Positions 956 through 41,270 of a DNA stretch of 43,018 bases are shown here, in pieces. A program made the position numbers and the translations under genes. The DNA is from a virus. Under the pieces are notes generated by a model that made no database searches, was not told the origin of the DNA, and saw nothing but the letters and a program-made list of their open reading frames with translations. How positions within the stretch are numbered: the stretch's first letter is position 1; each line of letters starts with the position of its first letter. The stretch is from IMG/VR virus record IMGVR_UViG_3300009034_000088, positions 1 through 43,018 of that record; one strand, written 5' to 3'.

Positions 956-1225
956 TTATGCCTGATTATATAAAGCCGTTGTCTCCAAACAATCTTTACA
1001 AAAATACACTGCTACACAGCAACAGTCATGTAGCCAGAATCCGCCTTTTCCTTCATTATCATGGAGAGAACAGACATTTTTCGTCTTTTTTGGATCTTCT
1101 TCTATCCCCTCGTGAGCCACAAAGCCTATTCTTGCCATGCCTTCACATCTACAACACTTTGTCGTTTCTGGAAATTCTGCTTGCCAAGTACATTCAAGCC
1201 CTTCTTTACCCAATGTAACTTTCAC
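956..1225 (-). CDS. Cys/His-rich zinc-ribbon-like phage protein, GTG start (89 aa)
   Basis: The frame is open up to 1375, but that ATG lies inside the -35 of a promoter at 1347-1375, so it cannot be the start. I choose the GTG at 1225 because a run of six G lies 5 nt upstream and the core of the protein begins there (VKVTLGKEGLECTW). The product has CCRCEG, then ARIGFVAHEG, then a Cys, His and Cys-rich tail (HDCCCVAVYFCKDCLETT). This is a compact zinc-ribbon-like pattern. First gene of the leftmost transcription unit. Function unknown. Confidence 0.75.
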   Translation of the reverse strand: MKVTLGKEGLECTWQAEFPETTKCCRCEGMARIGFVAHEGIEEDPKKTKNVCSLHDNEGKGGFWLHDCCCVAVYFCKDCLETTALYNQA

Positions 1226-1340
1226 TTTATCCCCCCAATCTAACGGGCCCCAAGCCATGCGATGACACAGAGGAGAGATACAACCTCTCGGCCCGGGACC
1301 CTTTTTTTCGACTGTTTGTTTTGGGATTCTGCGCCATCGC
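1226..1340 (-). promoter_or_regulatory. Possible structured 5' leader with interleaved short stems
   Basis: Transcription from the promoter at 1347-1375 should begin near 1340, leaving about 115 nt before the GTG at 1225. On the transcript GCGATG (1340-1335) can pair with CATCGC (1264-1259), and CGGGCC (1295-1290) with GGCCCG (1249-1244). The two pairings interleave, and a GAGAG/CTCTC hairpin (1289-1273) lies between them. The six-base arms are short enough to arise by chance, so this is weaker than the two other leaders described here. Confidence 0.35.
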
Positions 1341-1346
1341 GAATAT

Positions 1347-1375
1347 ATAATACCACAGAAAATCCATTTTGTCAA
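1347..1375 (-). promoter_or_regulatory. Sigma-70-type promoter
   Basis: On the minus strand TTGACA (1375-1370) and TATTAT (1352-1347) are separated by exactly 17 bp, a near-consensus housekeeping promoter. The flank TTTACTTGACAAAATG is identical to the promoter at 41162-41190. It would drive the small Cys-rich genes from 1225 to the left edge. Confidence 0.8.
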
Positions 1376-35486: not shown

Positions 35487-36083
35487 CTATACCCCATGAC
35501 TTTTAGGTGACTTTTTAGTGACAGATTTATTCTCTAATTGCTTTTTATCCTCAAAGCCTATCTCTAATGGAGGTTTAATATCTTTAATATATCCCCGTAA
35601 TCTATTGTTTATCTCATGCAACCCCGGCAGATAAGGCAATGATTTGACTCTATTGCGACTGAGTGCTTGATATAACTGCAAAAACTCTTTCTCTCTCCAT
35701 TGCAAATCATCCAGTTCTGTCGCACACAATCTCTGCCATCCGCCCATTGTTTCTATACAGGAATGAATTACGGTATCAGAAAATTTAATACTTTCATATA
35801 CCCCTATATCCTCCATAGCCTTAACTACTTGCTTCCATGCTATTAAAGCCCTATCGCTACAAGTTCCCTCTATTGCGTGACGTATTTTCGCGATCGTAGG
35901 AAATACAGAATACTCTTCATTGCCTAAAATATAATCAACAGCCTTTTTTACTTGCTCAATAGAGAAATCAGAAAGGTATCTAAAAAAAAGTTCTATTTTT
36001 TCTTTTGAAGGTTCTTTCCCACAATTCTCACCCAATGCGGTCGTTAATAATGCAAAATCTTTAAAGTCTTGTCTGCGTTTCAT
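35487..36083 (-). CDS. Helicase-loader-like replication protein (198 aa)
   Basis: The start is the ATG at 36083 (MKRRQDFKDFALLTTALGE), with GGGAGA upstream and an overlap with the O-like gene stop. A helical domain with 'ELFFRYLSDFSIEQVKKAVDY', 'YSVFPTIAKIRHAIEGT', then 'WQRLCATELDDLQWREKEFL' is typical of proteins found downstream of phage O-type initiators, by analogy with lambda P. Such proteins deliver the host helicase to the origin. Role inferred from position and domain pattern. Confidence 0.65.
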   Translation of the reverse strand: MKRRQDFKDFALLTTALGENCGKEPSKEKIELFFRYLSDFSIEQVKKAVDYILGNEEYSVFPTIAKIRHAIEGTCSDRALIAWKQVVKAMEDIGVYESIKFSDTVIHSCIETMGGWQRLCATELDDLQWREKEFLQLYQALSRNRVKSLPYLPGLHEINNRLRGYIKDIKPPLEIGFEDKKQLENKSVTKKSPKSHGV

Positions 36084-36910
36084 AGTTCTCCCTTTGCTAT
36101 TTTTTCTTCTTGTTCTTTTATCCATGCTTTCGCACCTGAATATTTCCCTCCAGTTTTGTGTAGTAATCGTGGTATCTGAGATTTGAATATCTCTATTGTG
36201 TACCCGGCTTCTTTGACAAATTTACTATCTGTCTTGAAAAACATAGCCATCAGTTCCTTTAACTTATCAATGCTGTATACCTGTAAAAGATTTTTAAATA
36301 TAACACCATGCTTACCCCATACAGGACAATATTTCTCACCAGTAATAATTTCAAATCCTCGACAAAATAATAATATCAATTCCTTTATTCTTGGATCACC
36401 TTTTTTCTTACGATCTACATTAGTAGTTTCTTTTGTATTAGTTTCTTTAAAATACTTTCTTTTGTGTACCCCAATATTGGGGACACTTTTTTTAGATTTT
36501 GTACCCATTATTGGGGATAGGGTGTTACCATTTTTGGGGACTGTTACCTTTTTTGGGGATACCTTCCACTTTTCGTAATCCTTTTGGAATCCATAGCTTA
36601 CAAGAGAGGTGTTACCATTTTTGGGGATAGGCTTTTTTATGAGTATATTTTTTTCGACAAGAGTATTTATAAGTAAATTACATCTTGAGCGAGGTATACC
36701 AGTTAATTCTGAGAATTGGCTATATGATATTATATCCATTCTTTTCTTTTTTTTCTTATCCTTTTTAGGATTCTCTAACCAGCCCCAAGTTTTTCTCAAT
36801 ACTACCCATAATATTTGCCATTCCTGCCCAGATATTCTGTGTTTGCATAGTGCATCTACAATTTCATTGGCTATATCAATATGTCCATTTTCCCTTTGAG
36901 GATTTGCCAT
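36080..36910 (-). CDS. Phage replication initiator, lambda O-like (276 aa)
   Basis: 'MANPQRENGHIDIANEIVDA' with LCKHRISGQEWQILWVVLRK, then 'TWGW' is the Phage_rep_O winged-helix N-terminus that binds origin iterons. The middle (about 95-165) is low-complexity and carries the repeated PKNGNT; its DNA is the iteron array. The C-terminal half ('LFCRGFEIITGEKYCPVWGK', 'AWIKEQEEKIAKGEL') should bind the loader. The ATG at 36910 lacks a clear ribosome site and lies after a 210-nt leader with strong structure. Initiator of phage DNA replication. Confidence 0.85.
   Translation of the reverse strand: MANPQRENGHIDIANEIVDALCKHRISGQEWQILWVVLRKTWGWLENPKKDKKKKKRMDIISYSQFSELTGIPRSRCNLLINTLVEKNILIKKPIPKNGNTSLVSYGFQKDYEKWKVSPKKVTVPKNGNTLSPIMGTKSKKSVPNIGVHKRKYFKETNTKETTNVDRKKKGDPRIKELILLFCRGFEIITGEKYCPVWGKHGVIFKNLLQVYSIDKLKELMAMFFKTDSKFVKEAGYTIEIFKSQIPRLLHKTGGKYSGAKAWIKEQEEKIAKGEL
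36380..36627 (-). other. Probable replication origin inside the O-like gene (oriLambda type)
   Basis: Five iterons of the form GTWACCATTWTTGGGGA begin at 36466, 36501, 36524, 36543 and 36611. The first has the palindrome CCCCAATATTGGGG. In gene direction the array is followed by an A-rich tract (36465 to about 36380). Iterons inside an O gene followed by an A-rich segment is the arrangement of the lambda origin. Confidence 0.8.
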
Positions 36911-37120
36911 CTGCTGTATAATGAGGAATTATTGTCGGTTTCTTCCTCATATATAAAAGTACCCCTCCCCATGCCAATATCACCCGAGGCACCAGCCGTA
37001 CAGGTACGGAGGATCCGGGAGGACAAAGAGAGGGGTACCCTTAATTGTCTGTGTAAAAAAGCCTGTATCACTGGTGCCTTCTCCTTTCTACATCTACGGT
37101 TTAGGTTCTTCTACTGAACG
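36911..37120 (-). ncRNA. Structured 5' leader of the replication operon
   Basis: From the predicted start near 37120 the transcript can form GGCACCAG/CTGGTGCC (37078-37071 with 36995-36988) and GTACCCCTC/GAGGGGTAC (37038-37030 with 36967-36959). The pairings interleave, so they form a pseudoknot or exclude each other. A CCGTAC/GTACGG hairpin (37009-36996) lies between, and ATGAGGAA/TTCCTCAT (36950-36921) closes just before the start codon. A GTG at 37071 with AAGGAG could give a leader peptide. Confidence 0.6.
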
Positions 37121-37126
37121 CATATC

Positions 37127-37155
37127 ATTATACCATACTTTACTCAATTTGTCAA
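37127..37155 (-). promoter_or_regulatory. Consensus sigma-70 promoter of the replication operon
   Basis: Perfect TTGACA (37155-37150) and perfect TATAAT (37132-37127) are separated by 17 bp on the minus strand. This is the strongest promoter in the window. It lies between the zinc-ribbon gene and the replication initiator. Confidence 0.9.
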
Positions 37156-38753: not shown

Positions 38754-39722
38754 TTAGTCAATTATCACGCCCGTTCCTTTGCAGTGCGTGCAGTCTTTCA
38801 ACGGTTTGTTTATCTCTGCCATGAGGTTTTTAAGATAGGTATCGATGTTTTTCTTCAAGTCCTCATGGTCTTTTCCTTCAAAGCCCTGAATCGGTGTATA
38901 TCCCTTATAGTTCTCTGGGCTATATGTCATCTCAAAAACTTTAACGGGGCGATCAAATCTATATCTTGTTGCATATTCCGCTTCACCTTCAGGGTCATAG
39001 TTTATATTAACTTTATACTCCTCTGGTTCAACCAATTTTATTTTCTTACAAACAGAAAAACAAAAATCGTAGTCGGAAGTTATTTTTGCTACTTTCGGGT
39101 CAATATTATCTTGGATGTGTTTGCGAATGATTCTATATGCCTGATAGGAAGAAAGTTTAGAAGGTCGAGAAGGTAGGACAATATTAGGGAAAAGTATCTT
39201 GTCCAAAAGTTGCGATTCAACATTTTTCTCCGTTATCTCTGTGGTACTATCTTTGTGTGTTTTCGAGGCAGGATATGAAAATCCGTTTACTTTTTTGACA
39301 TCTTCCAATTCAATCACATTCACAACCTCAAAAGCAATCTCTCTTTTTATATTAGGCTGTTCATCATATTTTTCTTCATACAGCGATCGATAATCGGCAT
39401 ATTCGCTTTTCCATGAACTATAACCTTTACTATCTGTAGAAAGTGCGTCTTTCCTTTTGATAACCAAAGGTATCTTGTCGCTTGCGAAAGATTTATCTTT
39501 CAGTTCATATCTGAAGTTAATATCGGGCTGGCTAATTTCTTCTTCGACCTTTGAAGGAATTTTCTTTACCACCACCCATGCTTCATGGAAAGACGGTTTT
39601 GCTTTCTTTCCGTCAAAGTAAAGTTCCAACAAATCCTTAGCATAACAAGACTTGTAATCCATATATCCTAAATAAATCTTATCCCTCGTCTTGATAATAC
39701 TAAACTTTTTAATCTTATCCAT
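38754..39722 (-). CDS. Large early protein of unknown function with C-terminal zinc knuckle (322 aa)
   Basis: The protein starts MDKIKKFSIIKTRDKIYLGY and is mixed alpha/beta, with 'IKREIAFEVVNVIELEDVKK' and 'SKLSSYQAYRIIRKHIQDNI' (a helical region that could be a winged helix), and 'YKGYTPIQGFEGKDHEDLKK'. It ends with CTHCKGTGVIID, a CxxCxGxG knuckle like that at the start of the next gene. I do not recognise the family. It is the largest early gene apart from tnpB. Confidence 0.6.
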   Translation of the reverse strand: MDKIKKFSIIKTRDKIYLGYMDYKSCYAKDLLELYFDGKKAKPSFHEAWVVVKKIPSKVEEEISQPDINFRYELKDKSFASDKIPLVIKRKDALSTDSKGYSSWKSEYADYRSLYEEKYDEQPNIKREIAFEVVNVIELEDVKKVNGFSYPASKTHKDSTTEITEKNVESQLLDKILFPNIVLPSRPSKLSSYQAYRIIRKHIQDNIDPKVAKITSDYDFCFSVCKKIKLVEPEEYKVNINYDPEGEAEYATRYRFDRPVKVFEMTYSPENYKGYTPIQGFEGKDHEDLKKNIDTYLKNLMAEINKPLKDCTHCKGTGVIID

Positions 39723-39894: not shown

Positions 39895-41048
39895 TTGGCA
39901 CTTTCCTATTTAAAAACAGGAGATTCTCAGGCTACACCTGACAACTCAGGTGTTGACGCCTGACGGGTCTGCCCGACCCTCAAAATATTTAGGGATGCGT
40001 TCAAATCCCTATCTATCTCTAATTCACAAAAAGGGCAATGATGAACTCTAACAGCCAATGTTTTAGGAACCTTCTCGCCACATTTAGAACAAATCTGACT
40101 GGTGTTTTGGGGTGGAACTTTAATCAGTTCTCTATCAGCCTCTACCGCTTTATATGACAAAAGATTAAAGAACATGCCCCAACTACTATCTGCTATGGAC
40201 TTACTCAAATGGCGATTTTTCACCATGCCCTTGATATTCAAATCCTCAACACAAATTGTCTTGAAATTCTTTATGTAGAAGTTTGCGACCTTATGAAGAA
40301 AATCATTCCTTTGATTGGTGATTTTCTCATGAGTTTTTGCAACCAGTATTCGAGACTTATTTCTTCTATTAGAACCTCTTTTTTTACGGGAAAGTCTTCG
40401 TTGTCTCCTGCGAAGAACTTTCTCGGATTGCCTAAAATACTTAGGATTTTCAACACTATTGCCTTCAGAGTCCACACAGAAAGACTTTATGCCGACATCT
40501 ATTCCCACTTCCTTTGTAGTATTGGGAAATGTTTTGCATGGAACATTATCACAGGAAAAAGAGACAAACCACTTATCAGTAGAAGTTTTTCTGATGGTGA
40601 TAGTCTTTATATTACCCTCAATAGGTCTCGACAGAAAAAGTTTTAATCTACCAACATTTCTAATATAGAGATTCCTGCCTTCCAATTTCCACCCACATTG
40701 TCTCAAAGTGAAGGAATCGTATCTATTTTTACTTTTGAATCTCGGATAACCCGGTTTATCACCACTTTTCACACGTCTAAAAAATCCCTGAAAAGCCTTG
40801 TCCACTCTTTCAACAACATCCTGAAGGACTTGCGAACCTACCTGTTTAAATTCAGGAAATTCTTTTTTAAGGTCAGGAAGTTGTTTTATTTGGTCATAAC
40901 ACGAAATTGATTCCTTATGCTGTCTATAAATATCTCTTCTATGTTCAAGACAGAGATTGTAGAGTTGTCGGCACAATTCAAGCCATTCAGTCGCATTTTT
41001 TTCTGTCTCTCTGTTAATTTTAGCTCTATATTTATAACATTTATACAT
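39895..41048 (-). mobile_element. IS605-family tnpB-only element (right end visible)
   Basis: The end after the tnpB stop reads GAGAATCTCCTGTTTTTAAA then TAGGAAAGTGCCAA (to about 39895), close to the conserved right end of IS1341-type elements, although its final hairpin has decayed. Just inside, ACACCTGA-GTTG-TCAGGTGT makes a perfect hairpin, the expected region of the omega RNA. The left end is not identified. No tnpA is present. Confidence 0.7.
39927..41048 (-). CDS. tnpB: TnpB, RNA-guided nuclease of the IS200/IS605 family (373 aa)
   Basis: The protein is full length. The N-terminal helical part ('EWLELCRQLYNLCLEHR') and 'KAFQGFFRRVKSGDKPGYPR' with 'RFKSKNRYDSF' are typical. The RuvC parts are intact: GIDVGIKSF (Asp184), ICVEDLNIKGM (Glu268), and IDRDLNASLNIL (Asp346/348). 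The zinc finger CSKCG...HCPFC (Cys320, 323, 338, 341) is complete. TnpB proteins cut DNA guided by an omega RNA made from the element's 3' end. Its start lies behind a phage-type promoter and a long stem leader. Confidence 0.95.
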   Translation of the reverse strand: MYKCYKYRAKINRETEKNATEWLELCRQLYNLCLEHRRDIYRQHKESISCYDQIKQLPDLKKEFPEFKQVGSQVLQDVVERVDKAFQGFFRRVKSGDKPGYPRFKSKNRYDSFTLRQCGWKLEGRNLYIRNVGRLKLFLSRPIEGNIKTITIRKTSTDKWFVSFSCDNVPCKTFPNTTKEVGIDVGIKSFCVDSEGNSVENPKYFRQSEKVLRRRQRRLSRKKRGSNRRNKSRILVAKTHEKITNQRNDFLHKVANFYIKNFKTICVEDLNIKGMVKNRHLSKSIADSSWGMFFNLLSYKAVEADRELIKVPPQNTSQICSKCGEKVPKTLAVRVHHCPFCELEIDRDLNASLNILRVGQTRQASTPELSGVA

Positions 41049-41155
41049 AAGAGAGAGCCCCTTGAGGAGAGATAGAAATGCTACAAGCAGGTAGGCTTGT
41101 AAACCTCGCAGGGCTCTATGGTTGTTATAAGGAATCTTGTAACATTTCTATCTCT
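41049..41155 (-). ncRNA. Structured leader before tnpB with a 20-bp stem
   Basis: The predicted transcript starts at 41155 with AGAGATAGAAATGTTACAAG, which pairs with 41087-41068 over 20 positions (one G-U pair). AGAGCCC in its loop (41117-41111) can pair with GGGCTCT (41060-41054), which carries part of the AAGGGG ribosome site of tnpB. The two stems interleave, so one form may hide the ribosome site. Confidence 0.65.
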
Positions 41156-41161
41156 ATTTAT

Positions 41162-41190
41162 AGTATAACACAAGATTTTCATTTTGTCAA
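41162..41190 (-). promoter_or_regulatory. Sigma-70-type promoter upstream of tnpB
   Basis: TTGACA (41190-41185) and TATACT (41167-41162) are 17 bp apart on the minus strand. The -35 flank TTTACTTGACAAAATG is identical to that of the promoter at 1347-1375. It probably belonged to the phage operon before the tnpB element arrived. Confidence 0.8.
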
Positions 41191-41270
41191 GTAAAAATTT
41201 AAAATAAATTCGTCTATCCATGGCATCTATTTGGTAGTTTGGTTCGCATCAGAACAGCCTCCCCTGACCA

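Follow-up and report, generated by a model that had tools for sequence, protein, structure and literature searches.

The window analysed here, 43,018 nucleotides of virus DNA (IMGVR_UViG_3300009034_000088, positions 1 to 43,018), carries on its minus strand a tnpB gene whose product retains the IS605 OrfB and Cas12f1-like domains. Directly 3′ of tnpB and on the same strand lies Gad1 (anti-Gabija; 38754–39722 (−), Pfam E = 5.6e-79), which may be expressed from the same promoter. Between this promoter and tnpB we find a leader, here leader A, in which two helices, P1 and P2, interleave in the arm order 1-2-1′-2′ (Table 1). The initial annotation had proposed a 20-nt stem at the predicted transcript start and a second, interleaved pairing over the AAGGGG ribosome site of tnpB, and the sequence agrees with both proposals. 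The first base of P1 lies 7 nt past the end of the −10 box, that is at the predicted transcription start, and P1 comprises 20 pairs with one G·U. The core of P2 is exact over seven pairs (AGAGCCC at 41117–41111 with GGGCTCT at 41060–41054) and is extended by one U·G pair (41110 with 41061).

Pseudoknots were scored by the summed stacking energies of the two interleaved helices with the loop terms omitted, which gives a ranking score and not a free energy. P1 and P2 of leader A together score −51.1. When the 110-nt leader was shuffled 2000 times with its dinucleotides preserved, this value was never matched (mean −21.6, best −34.9). The minimum free energy of the leader RNA, from a fold which excludes the pseudoknot, has a z score of −3.8.

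A blind scan of the transcribed strand over the whole window returned leader A as third among the pseudoknots. It is preceded by two others, leader C at 1340–1245 (−54.1) and leader B at 37079–36954 (−53.3), and the fourth-ranked pseudoknot of this strand scores only −39.4. In shuffles of the whole window −51.1 was never reached (0/60, best −44.9); ten separate shuffles peaked at −46.2. The antisense strands of the three leader stretches give only −37.2, −40.6 and −22.7. With both strands and spacers of 16–18 taken together, only three sigma70-like sites of the window show 11/12 matches or more, and these are the promoters of leaders A, B and C. Thus, the three top pseudoknots of the transcribed strand coincide with the three best promoters of the window. 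Leader B is the replication leader for which the initial annotation had already noticed the same topology; leader C was absent from it.

Table 1. Promoters, helix arms and genes of the three leaders in the window
Feature	Positions	Strand	Sequence or remark
Leader A promoter	41162..41190	-	TTGACA-N17-TATACT, extended TG before −10; 11/12 matches
Leader A P1 5′ arm	41136..41155	-	AGAGATAGAAATGTTACAAG; 20 nt, begins at predicted +1
Leader A P2 5′ arm	41110..41117	-	AGAGCCCT; anti-SD
Leader A alternative hairpin	41081..41102	-	TTACAAGC-ctacct-GCTTGTAG; competitor of P1 3′ arm
Leader A P1 3′ arm	41068..41087	-	CTTGTAGCATTTCTATCTCT
Leader A P2 3′ arm	41054..41061	-	GGGGCTCT; SD overlap
tnpB Shine-Dalgarno (SD)	41058..41063	-	AAGGGG, 9 nt 5′ of ATG; read from sequence
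tnpB (IS605 OrfB)	39927..41048	-	373 aa; ATG at 41048
Leader B promoter	37127..37155	-	TTGACA-N17-TATAAT; 12/12
Leader B P1 5′ arm	37070..37079	-	AGGCACCAGT
Leader B P2 5′ arm	37027..37043	-	TAAGGGTACCCCTCTCT
Leader B P1 3′ arm	36987..36996	-	GCTGGTGCCT
Leader B P2 3′ arm	36954..36970	-	GGGGAGGGGTACTTTTA; includes purine-rich ribosome site of small ORF at 36950
O-like / DnaD-like replication initiator downstream of leader B	36080..36910	-	PHROG matches
Leader C promoter	1347..1375	-	TTGACA-N17-TATTAT, TG; 11/12
Leader C P1 5′ arm	1328..1340	-	GCGATGGCGCAGA
Leader C P2 5′ arm	1289..1301	-	GGGTCCCGGGCCG
Leader C P1 3′ arm	1259..1271	-	TCTGTGTCATCGC
Leader C P2 3′ arm	1245..1257	-	TGGCTTGGGGCCC
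Cysteine-rich ORF downstream of leader C	956..1225	-	89 aa; without Pfam match

The three leaders differ in detail. The first base of P1 is the predicted +1 in A and in C but lies about 48 nt past the −10 box in leader B. In leader C the SD GGGGGGAU is able to pair with AUCCC within L1 of the same leader. When B and C are folded with nested pairs only, P2 alone is favoured over P1, and we assume that P1 and P2 coexist in these two leaders. For the gene behind leader C a single viral homologue was found (locus L016, 64%), which has no such leader beside it. Leader B is overlapped by the small ORF from 36950, which lies behind GGGGAGGGG, and by a 66-aa frame with a GTG start and a good SD (37071–36871 (−)); the start of the O-like gene at 36910 falls inside both frames.

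We then fetched relatives of the O-like protein from viral contigs and scored pseudoknots up to 260 nt upstream of the gene. After two of 80 loci had been skipped (contig end too near), a score of −36 was reached by 20/78 loci against 0.8% of 1560 shuffles and a score of −32 by 29/78 against 4.0%; six of the 78 are leaderless duplicates of others, and some of the 20 matches have one short helix or lie farther from the start codon (L057, L018, L079). The other 58 of the 78 loci fall short of −36. They include L017, the closest relative (O-like protein 51% identical), whose best pseudoknot scores −26.9. A later set of 18 distinct loci, which had no part in framing the idea, contains eight that reach −36, three of the eight (L132, L151, L153) with one helix of only 4–5 pairs. 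With L3 limited to 12 nt, both strands of 76 non-duplicate sequences (851,177 bases, the window among them) yielded 120 pseudoknots at or below −36. A promoter with at least 9/12 matches lies 2–50 nt upstream of 25 of these 120, compared with 0/31 in shuffles.

One locus with an O-like protein 47% identical (L011) has two such leaders, one of which scores −56.6 after a 12/12 promoter; P1 begins there about 31 nt past the −10 box. The genes behind such leaders are not only O-like. Besides tnpB and the gene of leader C in the window they include a NUMOD4-HNH endonuclease (L030, Pfam E = 2.6e-16), a DPBB-domain protein (L020) and an uncharacterised gene (L011). The leaders form a recurrent architectural class of environmental phages, in which a strong promoter is followed by a knot and then by the first gene, mostly a replication gene. 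In lambda, P4, N15, HK022 and stretches of CBP1 and Jimmer1 we found 45 pseudoknots at or below −36 against 35 in shuffles, and none of the 45 is linked to a promoter. In the cultured phages CBP1 and Jimmer1 the O-like gene is packed within an operon.

From the recurring leaders 24 were curated by hand, namely 21 of the 25 promoter-linked matches together with leader B of the window, L031 and L011+2116; L017, L041, L042 and L043 were left out by eye. In this set L1 measures 10–50 nt with 74% A+T, L2 3–42 nt and L3 0–16 nt. The median of L3 is near 2 and P1′ and P2′ are therefore nearly continuous. The helices of the class mostly have 8–21 pairs each, and only a short distance separates P2′ from the start codon. 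A run of at least four T stands at the end of P2′ in 13/24 curated leaders, compared with 3.0 expected from the flanking sequence; leaders A and C have no U-run after P2′. This layout resembles a terminator in which a knot closes the stem, with a loop far longer than in ordinary terminators. The SD is paired in A and B and lies free downstream of P2′ in most related leaders; in the best examples P2′ ends about 13–25 nt ahead of the start codon with the free SD in between.

Several leaders depart from the plain layout when inspected by eye. In L068 (5871–5977) three helices are mutually interleaved (1-2-3-1′-2′-3′), and the leaders of L029, L037, L048 and L075 have an additional helix of 7–11 pairs between L1 and L2, nested in P1. 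In L032 (2395–2485) and L043 (447–528) a P1 of 14–16 bp carries a loop CTCCT whose pairing partner is an AGGAG farther downstream, which in L043 is the SD; these two leaders show the common topology in a simple anti-SD version.

The sequences of leaders from different loci do not align, save for near-duplicates and very few pairs, and it is the architecture that recurs. The searches did not find a close relative of the window (none with TerL, and no match to the tnpB region in a DNA search of cultured phages); the evidence for covariation comes from loci other than leader A. The informative pair, L039 and L123, was drawn from the searches with the O-like protein and the L037 protein; the L037 protein search gave no near relative and the L039 protein search few additional ones. 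Between the two leaders, which are 77% identical, the 28 pairs show three double compensatory changes, of which two fall in P2 and one in P1, together with two one-sided changes to G·U and no broken pair. Compensatory changes on the transcribed strand, as found in these relatives, would place their leaders in the broad class of cis-regulatory 5′ leader pseudoknots.

The wobble pairs point in the same direction. In 32 leader regions, which include A, B and C and weaker ones beyond the curated set, we counted 12 internal G·U against 2 A·C (binomial p = 0.013), and in 878 other pseudoknots 50 G·U against 43 A·C. The helices for this count were picked on Watson-Crick pairs only, so that both strands are treated alike; the count replaces that of a G·U-permissive scan, which is biased (21:1). 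Because G·U exceeds A·C in the leaders, we conclude that the sense RNA is kept and not a DNA cruciform.

With Rfam 15 at gathering thresholds there were no matches in the window or in L006, L010, L011, L013 and L016, and only two tRNAs in 13 leader-bearing loci; the stretch 41000–41200 gave weak matches far under the thresholds. The class would escape searches with covariance models, because its members have only the interleaved topology and the position in common and neither sequence nor nested structure. Nothing in the loops points to a riboswitch, as 5- and 6-mers of L2 are not enriched over shuffles and L1 shows only U-rich words, slightly enriched. An HDV-like ribozyme, which has the same strand order, was considered and rejected, because P1 and P2 are too long for such a fold and do not adjoin.

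Pseudoknots in 5′ leaders are already known. In the repZ/repA leaders of the I-complex plasmids (ColIb-P9, IncB, IncL/M) a pseudoknot lies just upstream of the SD of the initiator gene, and an antisense RNA competes for it. The likeness is that a leader pseudoknot precedes a replication initiator gene; the phage leaders, however, have no excess of antisense promoters (5/24 against 4.6 expected in a crude sigma70 scan) and also stand before genes unrelated to replication. Control by a countertranscript was dropped for lack of this excess. The rep attenuators of pT181 and pIP501 likewise place a terminator-like helix with a U-run just 5′ of a replication gene. There the hairpins are mutually exclusive and set by a countertranscript, whereas the arms of the phage leaders are interleaved and able to coexist. 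The tisB mRNA has at its 5′ end an H-type pseudoknot, a standby site, which lies near a single-stranded leader region (PMC7708055). Its stems of 9 and 5 nt lie far upstream of a sequestered ribosome binding site, unlike the longer phage helices with P2′ near the start codon. The leader pseudoknot of gene 32 in T4, T2 and RB69 is autoregulatory and controls translation (PMC3014915). It lies 67 nt upstream, is accompanied by UUAA(A) repeats and has one protein ligand, whereas the phage leaders precede varied genes and share no common sequence. STAXI pseudoknots are found near DNA-handling genes (PMC2864571) and are tandemly repeated; the phage leaders by comparison have no Rfam match. At the level of titles and abstracts the literature searched contained no description of a class of promoter-linked knotted phage leaders, which suggests that the recurrent, sequence-free and promoter-linked form across many phages is new.

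How might the leaders work? With moderate confidence we suggest that they are large H-type pseudoknots which act in cis and lower the expression of the downstream gene until they are opened. From 5′ to 3′ the RNA would consist of P1, an AU-rich L1, P2, L2 (often with a hairpin), P1′, a short L3 and P2′. P1 would fold first while the RNA leaves the polymerase, and P2′ would next stack on P1′ and pair with the loop. The finished P2 helix would then reduce downstream expression, either by masking the ribosome site, as in A and B, or as a terminator-like helix with a U-run, as in roughly half of the curated set. The gene would be switched on when the knot is opened by a phage factor, a helicase or a ribosome on the leader. 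We favour an off-gate built on P2 because U-runs follow P2′ in many leaders and because P2 overlaps the SD in A and B and L1 can pair with it in C. The initial annotation had thought of a gate on the ribosome site of tnpB. The overlap of P2 with the SD does exist in A, and also in B, but this arrangement is neither specific to tnpB nor general. It had also reasoned that control of TnpB would lose ground if related phages without tnpB had the same stem elsewhere with no tie to translation; the structure does recur elsewhere, before replication genes, but still right before start codons. If the leaders are regulatory gates, uncultured phages would have in them a common control point for the expression of replication genes, and the restraint of the TnpB nuclease by a phage would be accounted for. 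For phage genomes a simple search rule follows: promoter, strong pseudoknot, start codon.

Like the tisB 5′ pseudoknot or the repZ/repA pseudoknots, the knot could instead raise expression, when together with the AU-rich L1 it binds ribosomal protein S1 or the 30S subunit and loads ribosomes onto the SD just behind it as a standby site. The free SD behind P2′ in the best examples, the A+T content of L1 and the precedent of tisB are consistent with such an enhancer. It would, however, leave the U-runs after P2′ without a role, and the SD is paired in A and B. We consider this reading unlikely.

A special form of the gate is an attenuator coupled to a leader ORF, in which translation from an AUG at the extreme 5′ end would carry a ribosome through the leader and unzip P1 and P2, and the leader would otherwise terminate transcription or block translation. 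An ATG is found within 4 nt of the start of P1 in 11/24 leaders against 3.5 expected, and the frame of this ATG (or of a GTG if ATG is lacking) contains no stop before the end of P2′ in 9/14 leaders compared with 5/28 other frames (p = 0.004); the U-runs would also fit. These frames were examined after the leaders had been chosen, though, the encoded peptides have no common sequence by eye, and in leader A there is only a frame of six codons at the start of P1. Such coupling is a tentative proposal to which we give a rather low probability. The ATG with its open frame could indicate the opening agent, a feature which leader A does not have. Carried further, and just as speculatively, the leaders could be a class of sequence-free RNA switches: a mini-ORF from the 5′ AUG would span the knot, its translation would open the attenuator and commit the phage to replication, and each phage would have evolved its own sequence for the same knot, which stands between its strongest promoters and key early genes (the replication initiator and nucleases including TnpB and HNH).

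Protection of the 5′ end is quite improbable in our view. The stem at +1 and the knot would shield early phage mRNAs from 5′-dependent decay and insulate the ribosome site without any switching, which agrees with the predicted +1 as the first base of P1 in both A and C and with an architecture kept while the sequence is free. Such a shield needs neither the interleaved P2 nor the U-runs, however, and P1 begins well past the −10 box in leader B and in L011. The leaders could also release a separate small RNA, an attenuated transcript of about 100 nt, as the initial annotation had offered; the U-runs of the curated set speak for it, but leader A itself has none. We hold it to be very improbable that the leaders act on RNA polymerase like put of HK022, a factor-independent antiterminator RNA: they do lie directly behind the strongest promoters, but their loops have no conserved words and the scan of HK022 shows no promoter-linked pseudoknot of this type.

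It had also been proposed that the stem of leader A is the left-end structure of the tnpB element. This is extremely doubtful, for although the leader adjoins tnpB and P1 can form in single-stranded DNA, the same architecture precedes two further operons of the window and the replication genes of other phages, the tnpB locus nearest in sequence has no leader and the excess of G·U in the class is the mark of an RNA. With tnpB as query we obtained one viral locus and four genome loci. L006, a Candidatus Omnitrophota MAG, has the nearest tnpB (67% identical in amino acids), and there tnpA (Y1_Tnp, Pfam E = 1.5e-40) lies directly upstream of tnpB in the place of the leader. DNA homology of L006 with the window is limited to 40899–39890 (71%), which includes part of the right end and omits the leader. 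No strong knot precedes tnpB in L006 and L009, which were scanned with flanks and together with L005; in L005, L007 and L008 only about 100 nt upstream of tnpB are present. Thus, in the one close homologue compared the structure does not travel with tnpB, as an IS200/IS605 left end would. Because the homology omits the leader and tnpA occupies its place, the leader is most likely the phage's own and lies outside the tnpB element, and tnpB was most likely placed behind it. The Omnitrophota genome containing L006 has no O-like match, and the hint at a host therefore stays weak.

The right end of tnpB, CTCCT..TAGGAAAGTGCCAAAAATT, resembles the end in L006 (39784–39804 and 39909–39929 of the window). 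About 100 nt beyond it lies a copy-like AGGAGAGTGTCAAA, and the two stretches form a 21-nt inverted repeat. The repeat may mark the guide-RNA region or an element end that is nested or rearranged.
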